DNA from: Flavobacteriales bacterium
Lineage (GTDB): Bacteria; Bacteroidota; Bacteroidia; Flavobacteriales; Flavobacteriaceae
Assembly (NCBI GenBank): GCA_027067965.1
Contig: JAMOUV010000010.1
Span: 372,001 to 436,000 of the forward strand
Direction: 5' to 3'
DNA: 64,000 bases
Shown: positions 26,737 through 31,210 of the stretch, in pieces
How the letters are laid out: the number at the start of each line of letters is the position of its first letter
Numbering within the stretch: position 1 is the first letter of the stretch
Made by a program: the position numbers and the translations under genes
Notes under the pieces: generated by a model
Seen by the model: only the letters and a program-made list of their open reading frames with translations
Database searches by the model: none
What the model was told of the DNA's origin: nothing

Positions 26737-27111
26737 TCACAAAAATTTTTTCATCATGGCCCGGACGCCGTTTACCTTGAACCGTGCCAAGATTTTACCG
26801 GTGGGGTCTGCATACATGCCGATAAGCCCGAAAGCCAAAGGTGTCATTTTATAATCTACCAATGCCTTTCCATGATAATCGGCATAAACCGGTTGGATAT
26901 GATGTTCGACCGGAATTTGTGCCAGATGAAGGGTTTGAATGGTTTTATCCAAAGCATCGATAAATTGTTGCTGGGTTTCCATTTCCAAAATTTTGAAAAT
27001 TTCAGAAGCATAATATTTCATACGCGATTCTACCAATGTTTGAAGAAAATCATGATAATAAGACGGTGTTTCATAAAATAAACACGGATGTATTTTTTCG
27101 AATGTTGTCAT
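26737..27111 (-). CDS. Conserved-looking small protein of unknown function, coupled to dnaJ-like gene
   Basis: The 124-residue protein is predicted soluble and mainly helical ([40 protein letters not shown]), ending with a strand-like [17 protein letters not shown] segment. Its ATG overlaps the stop of the upstream J-domain gene (ATGA), so it should be translated with it. It does not show the MerR-like helix-turn-helix of the CbpA modulator CbpM. I recognise no family. Position suggests a partner of the J protein, which is inference only. Confidence 0.7.
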
Positions 27112-28031
27112 GACCTCATTTTTTTAAGTTGTTCGTATAATTTTTTTTCTTGATCGGTCAAATTTTTAGGGACAATAATTTTTACGCCTGCATACAGATC
27201 GCCGTAGGTATTTTCTTTACCATATACGGGCATGCCTTTTCCGCGTACCCGCAATTTTTTTCCGCATGAGGTGCCCGGCGGAATATTTATTTGGATGGTG
27301 CCGGTAGGGGTTTTGAGCGGCACTTTTCCGCCCAAAACGGCCGTTACGTCATCCACTTCCACCGTGGTGTACAGGTCATTGCCTTTTCGGACAAAATCGG
27401 GATGGTCCAATGTATGAATGGTGATGTAAATATCACCGGGAGGGCCGCCGTTTATACCGGGACCGCCTTTACCTTTGAGCCGGATTATTTGGCCTTCGTA
27501 GGCACCCGGTTTTATTTTAATACGCAATTTCTTATCGCCCAAGTCAATGATGCGTGACGTACCGTGATAGACTTCGTCGAAATCCAGGGTCATCTCCGCA
27601 CGGTAATCATGGCCTTTGCGTGGAATATTGGCACTTCGATAGCCGGTACGGCCGCCGAATCCGCCGAACATATCGAATATGTCTTCAAAATCCCCTTCAA
27701 ATGTAAAGCCACCGCCGCCACCGAAATCCCCGAATCCGCCGAATCCGCCGAATCCGGCTTGCTGTCGGGCTTGTTCTTGGGCTTTTTTGTATTCTTCGTA
27801 ATGGCGCCAATGCATGCCCACTTCATCGTATTTCTTTCGATTTTCGGGATTACCTATGACTTCGTAGGCCTCGTTTATTTCCTTGAATTTTTCTTCGGCG
27901 GCTTTGTCGCCTTTATTTTTATCGGGGTGATATTTTCGTGCCAATTTCCGGTACGCTTTCTTTATTTCGTCTTGCGTAGCGGTTTTTGACACACCTAATA
28001 TTTTGTAATAATCTTTGTATTTTTCTTCCAT
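27108..28031 (-). CDS. Class B J-domain co-chaperone (CbpA/DnaJ C-terminal type)
   Basis: The 307-residue protein stimulates DnaK-type Hsp70 and delivers unfolded clients. It has an N-terminal J domain with HPD at 35-37, a Gly/Phe-rich linker (about 90-125) and the two C-terminal substrate-binding barrels (about 130-300; [19 protein letters not shown]). There is no CxxCxGxG zinc domain, so it is class B (CbpA-like), not DnaJ itself. It follows the HPF-sigma gene by 2 bp and overlaps the next small gene by 4 bp, giving a tight three-gene operon. Confidence 0.92.
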
Positions 28032-28033
28032 AA

Positions 28034-29023
28034 TTATTTCACTTCTTTTTCAAAAGCGGTTTCCACTTTTTTCTTAATATCATGCAATACTTCGTCCACT
28101 TTTTCCGCAGTCAAACCGGTAATTTCCGAAATTTCGTTTCGATCGAAATTTTCAAGAAAATGCAAATGAACCGCTGCTTGTTCTTTTTGAGGTAAATCTC
28201 CAATAATTTCGGAAATTTTATCATCGATTTGTTCGGTAGTCATTTGGTCGGAAATCCGGTCGATCAGATTGTCGTTATCGGAAAAATCTTCCAAGAAATA
28301 TAATTCGGGTTCGTAATTTTCTTCAAGCGGTGCATGTGTATCGCCTTCGAATTCAGTTACTTCCGTTTCGCCTTCGGCTTCGGCACCCGTATTTTGATAG
28401 CGGGCCAAAATTTCTTCGGCTATTCCGAAAAGCAATGCATCGATATCTTCGGCTCCGTGTTGTTTGGGGTCGAAAATCCGGTAAAATTTTCTTTCAATCA
28501 ATTCTATTAACCGGGGCAATTGGGCCTTTACTTGTTTTTTGGTAAATCCGAGTTCTTTCAGACGTTTTTTTAAGTATTTATGAACCGATTTCAAGCCGTT
28601 TTTAACTTTACGGCTGTATTTGGGTTTGTCTTGTTTCAAACTTTCTTCTACATCTTCCTTCAATAAATTATAATATTCGGCCCATTTTTGTTGTCTGTAA
28701 CGCTTGCGTTTGTATAAATAGTCTTTACGTTCATGCGCAATTTGGCGTTTGACCGCTTTTTTAAACTCCGCAAAAGCCCGGCGAAGAGCCGTGACCGGGT
28801 CCCGGTCGAGTTCCGTTACGGATACCGTTTTGCTCCGCATATTCAGTTCAATGTTTACGCGATAATTTTTGTCTTTATTAAAATCAACGGCCAGAATCAA
28901 GTTTTTGGTATATTTTTTAAACAGGTGTTCGTAATACTCCTGCTTTTGTTTAAGAATTTTTCTGATTTCAGGATGATATACTTCTTCAATTTCATTAAAG
29001 TTTCTGATTTCCAATGTAACCAT
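28034..29023 (-). CDS. HPF/RaiA-like domain fused to sigma-70 region 4-like domain
   Basis: The 329-residue protein seems to join two known modules. Residues 1-105 resemble the ribosome hibernation factor HPF/Rai[55 protein letters not shown] charged helical middle (110-205) and an acidic linker (215-255) follow. Residues 265-325 look like sigma-70 region 4: [20 protein letters not shown], then [20 protein letters not shown], a helix-turn-helix. Region 2 is absent, so it is not a complete sigma factor. It heads the operon with the J protein. TATCTTTA, a near-match to the -7 box, lies just downstream of the strong terminator hairpin of the YfdX genes. Confidence 0.72.
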
Positions 29024-29121: not shown

Positions 29122-30090
29122 TCAGCCATTCGATTTATTGAAAAATAATCTGGTTTTGAATGCGTCGATTTTCTTTTTCAAATCCTCGAACATACCTTTG
29201 GTTTCTTGTTTTTCTTGAATGGCTTTTTTCAATGCTTCGATAGCGTCGGCCAATTCTTTGTATTCTTTATCACGCTTACCGTAACCGAGGGCTTCGGCCA
29301 ATTTGAGTTGATAATCGGCGTTTTCCAACAAGTTTACGGCAATTTCAATTTTATCTTTATCGTCGCCTTCCATAACCAAAGCGGCGAGTTTAATATATTC
29401 TTCCGCTCTCAAAACGGGCAGCGGAATATGTTGTTCAACCACAATTAAAGTATTCAATGCGCCGATTAATACCGTCATGGCTTCATCCTTCTTGCCTTCG
29501 GACAACAATTTGACGGCAAGTTTCATGGCATCGGGATAGGTGGCCAAAGGCAAATTCGTCGTTTTTACCACAATTTCGCTTGCCAAATCGGATAAGATTT
29601 TTCTGGCCAACTGATAGTATCCTTCGTCCATGGCTTTTTGAGCCGCTTCGGTCAATTCATAGACGGTAGGAATATCCACAACCAAATCGCGGGTTTCGTA
29701 GGTTACATTAACCGGAATGAGCGCCACTTCGGGATTTTTGGCCATTAAAATTTCCAATTCACCTACGATTTTGGCCATGAGTTTTTCGGCTTCATCCGTT
29801 TTATTTTCATTTATTAATTTGATGGCATCGCCGGTTTGTGCAATGATTTCGATGGCTTGCTTAATGGCCACACTATCTTTTTCTTGACCCGCTTCTACGG
29901 TGGCCTTTACATTTTCGGCCACTTTGGTTTTCACTTCCTGCTCGGTCATTTGTTTTTGTCCGGCAGGTTTGGCGGCATTTTTATGGATTTGTTCTTTTTT
30001 CATTTGGATGGAATTTTGTTGATTGGTTTTGTTGCTATTGCATCCGATCATCAGAACGATCAGCAATATGATCAACCCTATCTTTTTCAT
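29122..30090 (-). CDS. YfdX-family lipoprotein (paralogue 2)
   Basis: The 322-residue product has a signal peptide and lipobox MIGC (Cys17), then a Lys/Gln-rich linker. The body is a YfdX domain: INENKTDEAEKLMAKIVGELEI, NPEVALIPVNVTYE, LPLATYPDAMKLAVKLL, PLPVLRAEEYIKLAA and YQLKLAEALGYGKRDKEYK. In Salmonella and E. coli YfdX is a periplasmic protein linked to acid/heat stress and chaperone-like activity. It follows its paralogue by 6 bp, so they form a bicistron ending at the 29068-29100 terminator. Membrane anchoring of one paralogue, but not the other, is notable. Confidence 0.85.
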   Translation of the reverse strand: MKKIGLIILLIVLMIGCNSNKTNQQNSIQMKKEQIHKNAAKPAGQKQMTEQEVKTKVAENVKATVEAGQEKDSVAIKQAIEIIAQTGDAIKLINENKTDEAEKLMAKIVGELEILMAKNPEVALIPVNVTYETRDLVVDIPTVYELTEAAQKAMDEGYYQLARKILSDLASEIVVKTTNLPLATYPDAMKLAVKLLSEGKKDEAMTVLIGALNTLIVVEQHIPLPVLRAEEYIKLAALVMEGDDKDKIEIAVNLLENADYQLKLAEALGYGKRDKEYKELADAIEALKKAIQEKQETKGMFEDLKKKIDAFKTRLFFNKSNG

Positions 30091-30096
30091 GGCTTA

Positions 30097-31026
30097 TTAT
30101 TTTTTATTTTCCGGTTTAACGGGGAATAATCTTTCTTTAAATTTTTTCAATTTTTCGTCCAAAGCGAGCAATTGTTTACGCGTTCTTCTTTCTTTTTCTT
30201 TTTCAACCGATTTTTTGAGTTTGGCAATAGCATCCGCCAATGCTTTATATTCTTTGTCTTTTTTGCCGTATCCCATGGCTTCGGCTAATTTAAGTTGATA
30301 GTCGGCGGATTGGAGTAAAGCCAATAAAACTTCTTTATTTTCTTTGAATTTTTTGTCATTATCCATTACGGCAAGTGCTTCTTTGATTAATTCTTGTGCA
30401 CGTAAGACGGGTAAGGGTAAGATATCTTCTTTTACGATTAAGGTTGTTAAAGCTTTTACCAATACGGCTCCAGCTTCTTGGTTTTTATCTTCGGACAAGA
30501 ATTTGGCTGCCAATTTCATGGCATCGGGATAGGTGGCCATGGGCAAATAAGCGGTTTTTACTATCATTTCGCTGGAGAGATCGTTCAAAACCCATTTGGC
30601 TTGTTGATAATATCCCTTATTGATGGCTTCGCGTACTTCTTTCATGATTTTTTCCACCGTGTTAATATCGGTAACCACATCATGTACTTCAACAGTGGAA
30701 CTTACGGGAATCAAAGCCATTTCGGGATGTTTGACCAAAAGTACTTCAAGTCTTCCGATAATTTCGGCCAGTTTGTCTTCGGCTTCCTTATTTTTCTTTT
30801 CAGCCAACATGCCGATTACTTTTTGGGTTTCTTGATAAATCATCACGGCTTCGCGACTGGCTTCGGTTATTTTGTCATTGATGCTACGATCCACGCTTTT
30901 GTTTACGCGTAGTTGCATTTCGGTTTTCGAAATCCCGGTTTTATCTGTTTTACCGGTGTCTTGTTGAGCCGGTGCCATAAGTATAAAACTCAATGCGGCT
31001 ATAAAGGACAATACTAATTTTTTCAT
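30097..31026 (-). CDS. YfdX-family secreted protein (paralogue 1)
   Basis: I start at the ATG at 31026 (309 residues), which gives a clean signal peptide (MKKLVLSFIAALSFILMAPA, then QQD); an in-frame start at 31050 would add eight residues before it. The YfdX body matches its neighbour closely in several stretches (LATYPDAMKLA, YQLKLAEAMGYGKKDKEYK, PLPVLRAQELIKEAL). There is no lipobox Cys, so it should be soluble in the periplasm. The C-terminal 40 residues are a basic helical tail. The gene leads the two-gene transcript. Confidence 0.84.
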   Translation of the reverse strand: MKKLVLSFIAALSFILMAPAQQDTGKTDKTGISKTEMQLRVNKSVDRSINDKITEASREAVMIYQETQKVIGMLAEKKNKEAEDKLAEIIGRLEVLLVKHPEMALIPVSSTVEVHDVVTDINTVEKIMKEVREAINKGYYQQAKWVLNDLSSEMIVKTAYLPMATYPDAMKLAAKFLSEDKNQEAGAVLVKALTTLIVKEDILPLPVLRAQELIKEALAVMDNDKKFKENKEVLLALLQSADYQLKLAEAMGYGKKDKEYKALADAIAKLKKSVEKEKERRTRKQLLALDEKLKKFKERLFPVKPENKK

Positions 31027-31210
31027 TTCTTTAATTTTTTTGTTAAACATAATATTTCATATCACAACTATCAAAAGCATTGCCAATAGCGTATCTTGGG
31101 CATATTTTTACAAACATTGTCAGTTAGAGTGTTAACAAAATGACAATTTGACAACAAGGAAGTGTAAATGTCATGCAGGAATAAGGAAAAGGCGGTTTGT
31201 CTTACCGGAC

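Follow-up and report, generated by a model that had tools for sequence, protein, structure and literature searches.

The window, by which we mean the whole 64 kb stretch of DNA analysed, contains on its minus strand a gene whose product joins an HPF-like N-terminal domain to two domains resembling regions 2 and 4 of an ECF sigma factor. The gene lies in a putative operon with the order yfdX-yfdX-fusion-dnaJ, followed by a gene for a 124-residue protein that gave no match above cut-off in a Pfam scan (Table 1). The span from residue 213 to 257 of the fusion, which takes in the linker between the two sigma-like domains, has a net charge of -15. The genome from which the window comes, 2.05 Mb in 33 contigs, probably belongs to the Bacteroidota, to judge by its relatives, and also encodes a separate, ordinary HPF.

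Table 1. Coordinates, within the window, of the fusion gene, its domains and its neighbours in the putative operon.
Feature	Position	Strand	Basis or remark
HPF-sigma2-sigma4 fusion ORF (domains as predicted)	28034..29023	minus	329 aa + stop codon; ATG at 29023, stop at 28034
HPF/RaiA-like domain, residues 1-108	28700..29023	minus	AF2 b-a-bbb-a, VIA Z, profile-profile
Family signature, 10 residues, residues 98-107, end of HPF helix 2	28703..28732	minus	Alignment
Predicted degenerate ECF sigma region 2, residues ~129-213	28385..28639	minus	VIA, diverse profile, sigmaE alignment
Acidic sigma2-sigma4 linker, residues ~214-250	28274..28384	minus	Net charge
Sigma region 4-like domain, residues ~251-329	28037..28273	minus	Pfam, NCBIfam, hhalign, VIA
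DnaJ, CbpA type	27108..28031	minus	DnaJ and DnaJ_C above Pfam cut-off; 2 bp downstream of fusion
124-aa protein, no Pfam match above cut-off	26737..27111	minus	Overlaps dnaJ end
YfdX-family protein, upstream of fusion	29122..30090	minus	PF10938, E 1.8e-31
Second YfdX-family protein, first gene of putative operon	30097..31050	minus	PF10938, E 1.5e-31
Sigma54-like element GGCAA-N4-TTTGAT, before first yfdX	31070..31084	minus	Pattern search

The N-terminal domain of the fusion has a predicted HPF fold and is distantly homologous to HPF in sequence. In an AlphaFold2 model of the whole protein, built from 3 sequences (mean pLDDT 71.9), residues 2-128 form a strand, a helix, three strands and a second helix, which is the topology of HPF and the beta-alpha-beta3-alpha arrangement that a preliminary description of the locus had anticipated. 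In blocks of ten residues, pLDDT was 77-88 over residues 1-90, except for 65 at 31-40, and was 61 at 91-100. The best VIA-align match of this domain was Vibrio cholerae HPF (4hei_A; Z 12.6, 91 residues, rmsd 2.2). Among the best 50 rows of the VIA-align search, the first 30 were HPF/pY proteins or ribosome chains taken for HPF (Z 12.6 to 9.8), sigma factors started after these at Z 9.4, and every row confined to the N-terminal part was an HPF, RaiA or pY protein or a ribosome chain taken as such. Foldseek with the full model placed a sigma factor in its first row (E 1.7e-3) and gave HPF chains at a probability of 1.00 with E values from 2.2e-3; there was no match below E 1e-3.

At the sequence level the similarity emerges only with diverse relatives. 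The Pfam HPF model (PF02482) gave no match to the window protein and was therefore dropped as stand-alone proof; none of the scanned relatives reached its cut-off of 23.7 bits, the best scores being 23.3 and 23.0. A profile-profile comparison with HPF based on nine members from the genus scored 18.8 and was likewise set aside as stand-alone proof because 2 of 100 shuffles scored higher. With 23 diverse members the hhalign score was 38.7 (E 1.9e-6), against a best of 19.2 in 60 shuffles. The family N-domain profile also retrieves five confirmed ordinary HPF genes in whole genomes, and against PDB sequences it gave seven weak matches, four of them HPF and including the first three (E 0.06-0.13). 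The ten-residue signature at the end of this domain is near-invariant in a 12-row alignment and weaker in more distant members. For the C-terminal dimerisation domain of long HPF, Pfam gave no match up to E 1 in the window protein, and sigma region 4 was matched there. HPF proteins bind the decoding site of the 30S subunit, and the HPF part has a net charge of +8 to +11 in six genus members compared with -3 to +8 in ordinary HPF, measured on stretches of unequal length.

The C-terminal part resembles sigma region 4. Residues 269-319 matched Pfam Sigma70_r4_2 (E 6.2e-5, 23.0 bits, below the 25.7-bit cut-off) and residues 256-327 matched NCBIfam sigma_PG0214 (E 2e-7, 30.9 bits, far below the model's 130). 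Aligned by hhalign with 33 ECF sigma factors (30 loci together with L011-L013), region 4 gave a probability of 97.8 (E 8.6e-13, 73 columns), a result as high as none of 60 column shuffles, and the C-terminal part of the model matched region 4 of SigD at a VIA Z of 9.2. Together with the Z of 12.6 to HPF, the profile-profile value bears out the proposal of the preliminary description that an HPF fold and sigma region 4 stand in one chain. The HMM searches suggested there succeeded in one half: Sigma70_r4_2 was matched, though below cut-off, and PF02482 was not.

The same description had considered sigma region 2 to be missing. Residues ~129-213 are instead, on profile and model evidence, a degenerate ECF region 2 that is plain in relatives, since four of these pass an ECF cut-off over nearly the full profile, and the reading of the fusion as a sigma4-only protein is ruled out. 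The model concerned, TIGR02937 (cut-off 42.9 bits), was passed by four of ten scanned relatives from outside the genus, L090 (65.3 bits), L094 (55.9), L095 (46.0) and L110 (44.3), over profile positions 1-5 to 165; L083, L084, L092, L093, L127 and the Orf11 protein discussed below did not reach it, and the window protein scored 26.8. In the VIA alignment of the full model, sigmaE (1or7) aligns over its full length with model residues 129-329. When the middle domain was modelled alone (mean pLDDT 67.8), the first four VIA rows were ECF region 2 (79-92 residues; Z 9.1, 8.9, 8.8 and 8.0, where the tool warns that helical bundles at Z 8-9 can share a common arrangement), and unrelated helical proteins followed from Z 7.8. 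The top Foldseek row for this domain was SigE region 2, at a non-significant E of 1.4. A diverse middle-domain profile matched ECF region 2 at E 1.8e-8 with a score of 48.8 (best of 60 shuffles, 15.2); the corresponding genus-only profile was not significant, 4 of 60 shuffles scoring at or above it.

Residues at promoter-contact positions were counted in 28 family sequences, five of them sigma-only, and in the 33 ECF sequences; the family set omits L004, L010 and L099, which are cut by contig ends, and L007, a near-duplicate. Positions are labelled after E. coli sigmaE (R171, R176) and taken to have the roles in promoter contact assumed for them. The R171-equivalent is basic in 28 of 32 ECF factors and in 5 of 28 family members, 15 of which have an acidic residue there; for the R176-equivalent the counts are 27 of 32 and 4 of 28, with 13 acidic. 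The region 2.4 Asn, present in all 33 ECF sequences, is found in two of the 28, and the residue preceding it is basic in 22/33 ECF factors and 0/28 family members (acidic in 18). A third helix position is basic in 28/32 ECF factors and remains so in 18/28 family members. Neither the R176-equivalent nor the region 2.4 Asn is retained by any of the six genus members in the alignment, and four of the six keep Arg at the R171-equivalent. The window protein is not among these four: it has Asp at the R171-equivalent and again at the R176-equivalent, and Glu in place of the region 2.4 Asn. In region 2.2 one acidic position is kept in 24/28 family members and the next in 16/28, with Gln at the Gln position in 3/28.

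These alignments indicate that the key residues for reading -10 and -35 promoter elements are lost in most members, which makes a direct DNA-binding role appear less likely than the preliminary description supposed. The loss may not extend to all members, given the four of ten relatives that pass the ECF cut-off. Because the region 2.2 acidic position is so widely kept, contact with core polymerase may survive in the family. The earlier judgement that this is not an ordinary sigma factor holds. Six genus members carry a net charge of -5 to -9 on the region 4 part, where ECF factors range from -5 to +5, again over stretches of unequal length; in four family members this charge is positive, so the shift is not universal. 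In a midpoint-rooted tree with weak inner branches, the 33 ECF sequences grouped in a single clade (support 0.984) that contained no family member. The Pfam model of the PhyR sigma-like module (cut-off 27 bits) scored 25.6 in the Burkholderia member L127, where it was the best Pfam match, and 17.7 in L005; Pfam did not list it for the window protein, in which the scan found no receiver domain either.

The pattern GGCAA-N4-TTTGAT before the first yfdX is the sole match in the window (0.15 expected; 13 of 100 shuffles contained at least one), and its weight lies not in this match, which alone is not significant, but in its repeated position before yfdX in 8/8 genus upstreams (with a leading T in seven), some of these loci being close relatives. 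The spacing fits the -24/-12 consensus of sigma54 elements. None of the 11 Bacteroidota loci scanned outside the genus contained the related pattern TGGCA-N5-TTTG[AC], and conservation is thus confined to the genus. The element's conservation there, together with the RpoN encoded in the window genome, suggests that the operon is controlled by RpoN and not by its own fusion protein. Half-sites of the form TGACA/TGTCA are repeated upstream of the element in the genus, in the window upstream of position 31050, and could be enhancer-protein sites.

The fusion is present in all nine genomes of the genus, the window genome included, at 49-77 percent identity and with no internal stop within the match; the copies in G001 and G004 are cut by contig ends. 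Three of the 12 genomes matched in the same search (G056, G083 and G092) were dropped as ordinary ECF sigma factors matched via region 4. Outside the genus, the genus profile found in 299 genomes of the taxonomic family only an HPF-domain-only gene, in two of them, and in 395 genomes of the order no further fusion. Three of 395 genomes matched in a phylum sample, the window genome among them, and around the two new matches 9/119 and 8/119 genomes matched, in overlapping sets. Genus-based profiles would miss distant members. A diverse profile matched 12 of 395 genomes, five carrying fusions, five matched via ordinary HPF, and L137 and L140 not assigned; six of its 13 places were fusions, in five genomes. 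G733 and G684 were called fusions from alignment, not from the family scan. The fusion is rare and patchy among the Bacteroidota sampled. Two genomes, G700 (L100) and G1014 (L108), each hold two divergent fusions about 2.6 to 2.9 kb apart. A phage origin of the window protein was considered and rejected: the N-domain had no match in 50,697 phage records, and PHROGs gave weak matches only, mostly to sigma factors or proteins of unknown function.

In 8/9 loci of the genus a pair of yfdX genes lies upstream of the fusion, dnaJ follows it in 7/7 loci whose contig reaches that far, and the 124-residue protein is encoded after dnaJ in the 6/6 loci that reach it. At the exceptional locus, in G001 (L116), translations show an rlmN-like ORF and others upstream in place of yfdX. 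Distant homologs of the 124-residue protein occur near the fusion in L102 (E 4e-7) and L103 (E 1e-7). Elsewhere in the Bacteroidota, where neighbours were named by search matches or, in default of a search row, read from translation, the fusion stands with Hsp20, DnaJ, FtsH and Trx (L101), with DnaJ, Trx, a ClpK/ClpB-like protein and an antiporter (L102 and L109), with FtsH and, beyond an intervening YfdX gene, the second fusion (L100) and with DnaJ (L103); at L104 no chaperone-type neighbour was seen in the translations read at the locus. Most of the loci opened have YfdX, HdeD, DnaJ, FtsH, Trx, a ClpB/K-like protein or Hsp20 beside the fusion.

The two halves also occur as separate genes. 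In G1081 (L107:6216-8973) one gene run encodes YfdX, a sigma-only protein, HdeD and an HPF-only protein, and in L106 an HPF-only gene has YfdX and HdeD as neighbours. HPF-only homologs beside HdeD or YfdX were found in these two loci by search and in L047 and L048 from translations. HPF-only and sigma-only genes as neighbours in one genome are what would be expected if both halves work together. The sigma-only protein of L107 shares the linker motif EELDDISYHLDEY with the fusions L094 and L095. Searched against five genomes, the four others having been chosen for holding an HPF-only gene or a fusion, it found itself and, in 4/4 others, a sigma-only relative at 31-33 percent identity; the relative in the window genome is G000:C15:97939-98520 (L124). 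Stand-alone sigma-like proteins of the same subfamily are encoded at L122, L123, L124 and L125, and in L122 and L123 the ORF adjoining the sigma-only gene resembles, as read from its translation, the ribosome-rescue gene smpB.

Searches of plasmid records connected the family with tLST islands. The window protein and L090 had no plasmid match, and L094 had one, to a 379-residue protein of Roseomonas gilardii (NZ_CP015585.1; E 9e-7, residues 17-254) that scores 23.0 of the 23.7 bits for HPF and 44.3 bits for ECF sigma, against the cut-off of 42.9. Its neighbours are PsiE, three Hsp20, MarR, FtsH, an AAA ATPase and HdeD, a tLST-like island. Used as query, this protein matched 301 of 72,556 plasmid records, with 80 percent or more of its length covered in 272; one of the matches is a homolog in the laboratory strain Methylorubrum extorquens AM1. 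In the one E. coli island opened (NZ_CP061755.1), the match is a 381-residue 'hypothetical protein' encoded between hdeD-GI and trx-GI in the order clpK, cls, ftsH, hsp20, yfdX1, yfdX2, hdeD, this gene, trx, antiporter, diguanylate cyclase, PsiE, HtpX and trypsin-like peptidase. Published work on tLST puts orf11 at this place, between hdeD and trx, and states that its identity to proteins with a known function stays below 30 percent (PMC8290217); by gene order the E. coli gene is therefore tLST orf11. Among the other plasmid contexts opened, that of Burkholderia anthina has three Hsp20, GroES/GroEL and DnaK, that of Caulobacter an AAA ATPase and HdeD, that of Methylorubrum yfdX1 as its one annotated feature, and that of Cupriavidus is a record without annotation.

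The Roseomonas protein matches Orf11 over residues 1-340 (26 percent, E 2e-16), and on the strength of this full-length homology we count Orf11 as a predicted HPF-sigma protein and member of the family. Its own Pfam scan gave a weak region 4 alone (18.0 bits); its HPF part scored 21.6 bits with a family profile that included Roseomonas, 12.1 without Roseomonas and 0.8 with an ordinary-HPF profile, and it had no direct match to the window protein at E 0.01. The orf11 gene was matched in 152 of 5,426 complete E. coli genomes, in 144 over at least 80 percent of length; some of these genomes have several matching places, up to six (median 1). In a deletion study in E. coli K-12 MG1655 lacZ::LHR, no heat or chlorine phenotype is reported for orf11, which is not named among the 7/13 genes required, nor is an effect of its deletion on membrane-lipid oxidation (PMC8407380). 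This null result counts against a large role in surviving short lethal stress and leaves room for one in recovery or regulation.

We read the fusion, tentatively, as a three-domain HPF, ECF sigma2 and sigma4 protein of proteostasis operons that acts as a ribosome-docking sigma mimic. To judge from its fold and positive charge, the HPF domain would bind ribosomes that are idle or under stress, docking in the decoding site of the 30S or 70S particle. The sigma2-sigma4 part would forgo the usual reading of promoters and still be recognised, through its sigma-like shape, by a partner that may be core RNA polymerase or an anti-sigma factor, a step suggested by the loss of DNA-contact residues while the fold is retained. 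The protein would in this way make the availability of RNA polymerase or sigma factors depend on how many ribosomes stand idle during heat or oxidative stress, at a time when the chaperones encoded nearby are at work. Alternatively, the fusion could be a functional ECF sigma factor that its HPF domain keeps on ribosomes; stress that blocks the ribosomes would free or alter it, and it would then transcribe stress genes from promoters of unusual sequence. This would explain the relatives that pass TIGR02937 nearly over its full profile, the retained acidity of region 2.2, the helix position still basic in most members and the Arg kept at the R171-equivalent in four genus members. Public records likewise name several relatives sigma-70 family factors or FliA, and a sigma-24-like factor is called a hallmark of one tLST-like island (PMC8290217). 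We consider such a factor unlikely: most members have lost two of the basic -35 helix residues and the otherwise invariant region 2.4 Asn, every aligned genus member lacks the R176-equivalent and that Asn, region 4 is acidic in the six genus members, and the operon's conserved promoter looks like a sigma54 type in a genome with RpoN, with no sign of autoregulation.

A different account, improbable on the whole though less so than a working sigma factor, makes the protein a ribosome-protection or hibernation factor whose sigma-like part serves, like the C-terminal domain of long HPF, as a structural module for dimerisation or for rRNA or chaperone contact, with no transcription role. It suits a three-row alignment in which invariant residues are dense in the HPF part, the basic segment and the middle and sparse after residue ~250, as well as the HPF-only homologs beside HdeD or YfdX and partner genes that encode chaperones or envelope-stress proteins. 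Regions 2 and 4, however, still follow each other as in sigma factors and are recognised as sigma when compared with shuffles, and the separate sigma-only gene in all four other genomes tested suggests that the sigma-like part has a role of its own. That the gene is a degenerating passenger with little present function, kept by linkage in stress islands, might be argued from the reported lack of an orf11 phenotype (PMC8407380) and from the degenerate regions 2 and 4 of the window genus; the uninterrupted matches in all nine genus genomes (two contig-truncated), the near-invariant basic segment and the recurrence of the same kinds of partner across phyla make this highly improbable. Returning to the sigma mimic, it may represent a new class of stress regulators gated by ribosome occupancy, in which translation stalled by heat or oxidation would produce idle ribosomes that capture or free the protein, so that its sigma-like module switches an anti-sigma factor or parks core RNA polymerase; we regard this further step as doubtful.

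If this gating by ribosome occupancy holds, such a sigma mimic would couple ribosome hibernation directly to transcription, would be spread on tLST-type islands and would explain tLST orf11. Research on ribosome hibernation usually proceeds separately from that on sigma-factor control, and here one conserved chain holds both. Its presence in heat- and chlorine-tolerance operons and on mobile islands makes a direct ribosome-to-transcription link testable and gives a concrete hypothesis for orf11. Our literature search, which covered openly accessible papers and is not proof of absence, found no description of an HPF-sigma fusion.

The closest known setting is the tLST (LHR/TLPQC) of E. coli and other Proteobacteria, where orf11 adjoins yfdX1-yfdX2-hdeD much as the window fusion adjoins yfdX-yfdX. 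The window operon differs in having DnaJ, and of 13 tLST proteins searched against the 64 kb only the two YfdX proteins, strongly, and a short stretch of FtsH (E 0.003) match. Of the tLST core genes dna-hsp20-clpG/K, hsp20 and clpK had no match in the window, the MerR-like dna not being among the queries. With HPF, RaiA and protein Y the fusion has in common the fold and distant homology of residues 1-108; short HPF has nothing after this domain and long HPF a C-terminal domain, whereas the fusion continues with a basic segment and a sigma-like module. It shares the order sigma2-linker-sigma4 and, as modelled, the fold with ECF sigma factors (sigma_PG0214/GFO_1088, TIGR02937), from which it differs in its N-terminal HPF domain, in having mostly lost the promoter-contact residues and, for the window protein, in scoring under the cut-offs. 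In PhyR-type proteins a sigma-like module serves as bait. The fusion would be like the anti-anti-sigma factor PhyR in joining to another domain a sigma-like module that apparently does not read DNA, with an HPF domain in place of the receiver domain.
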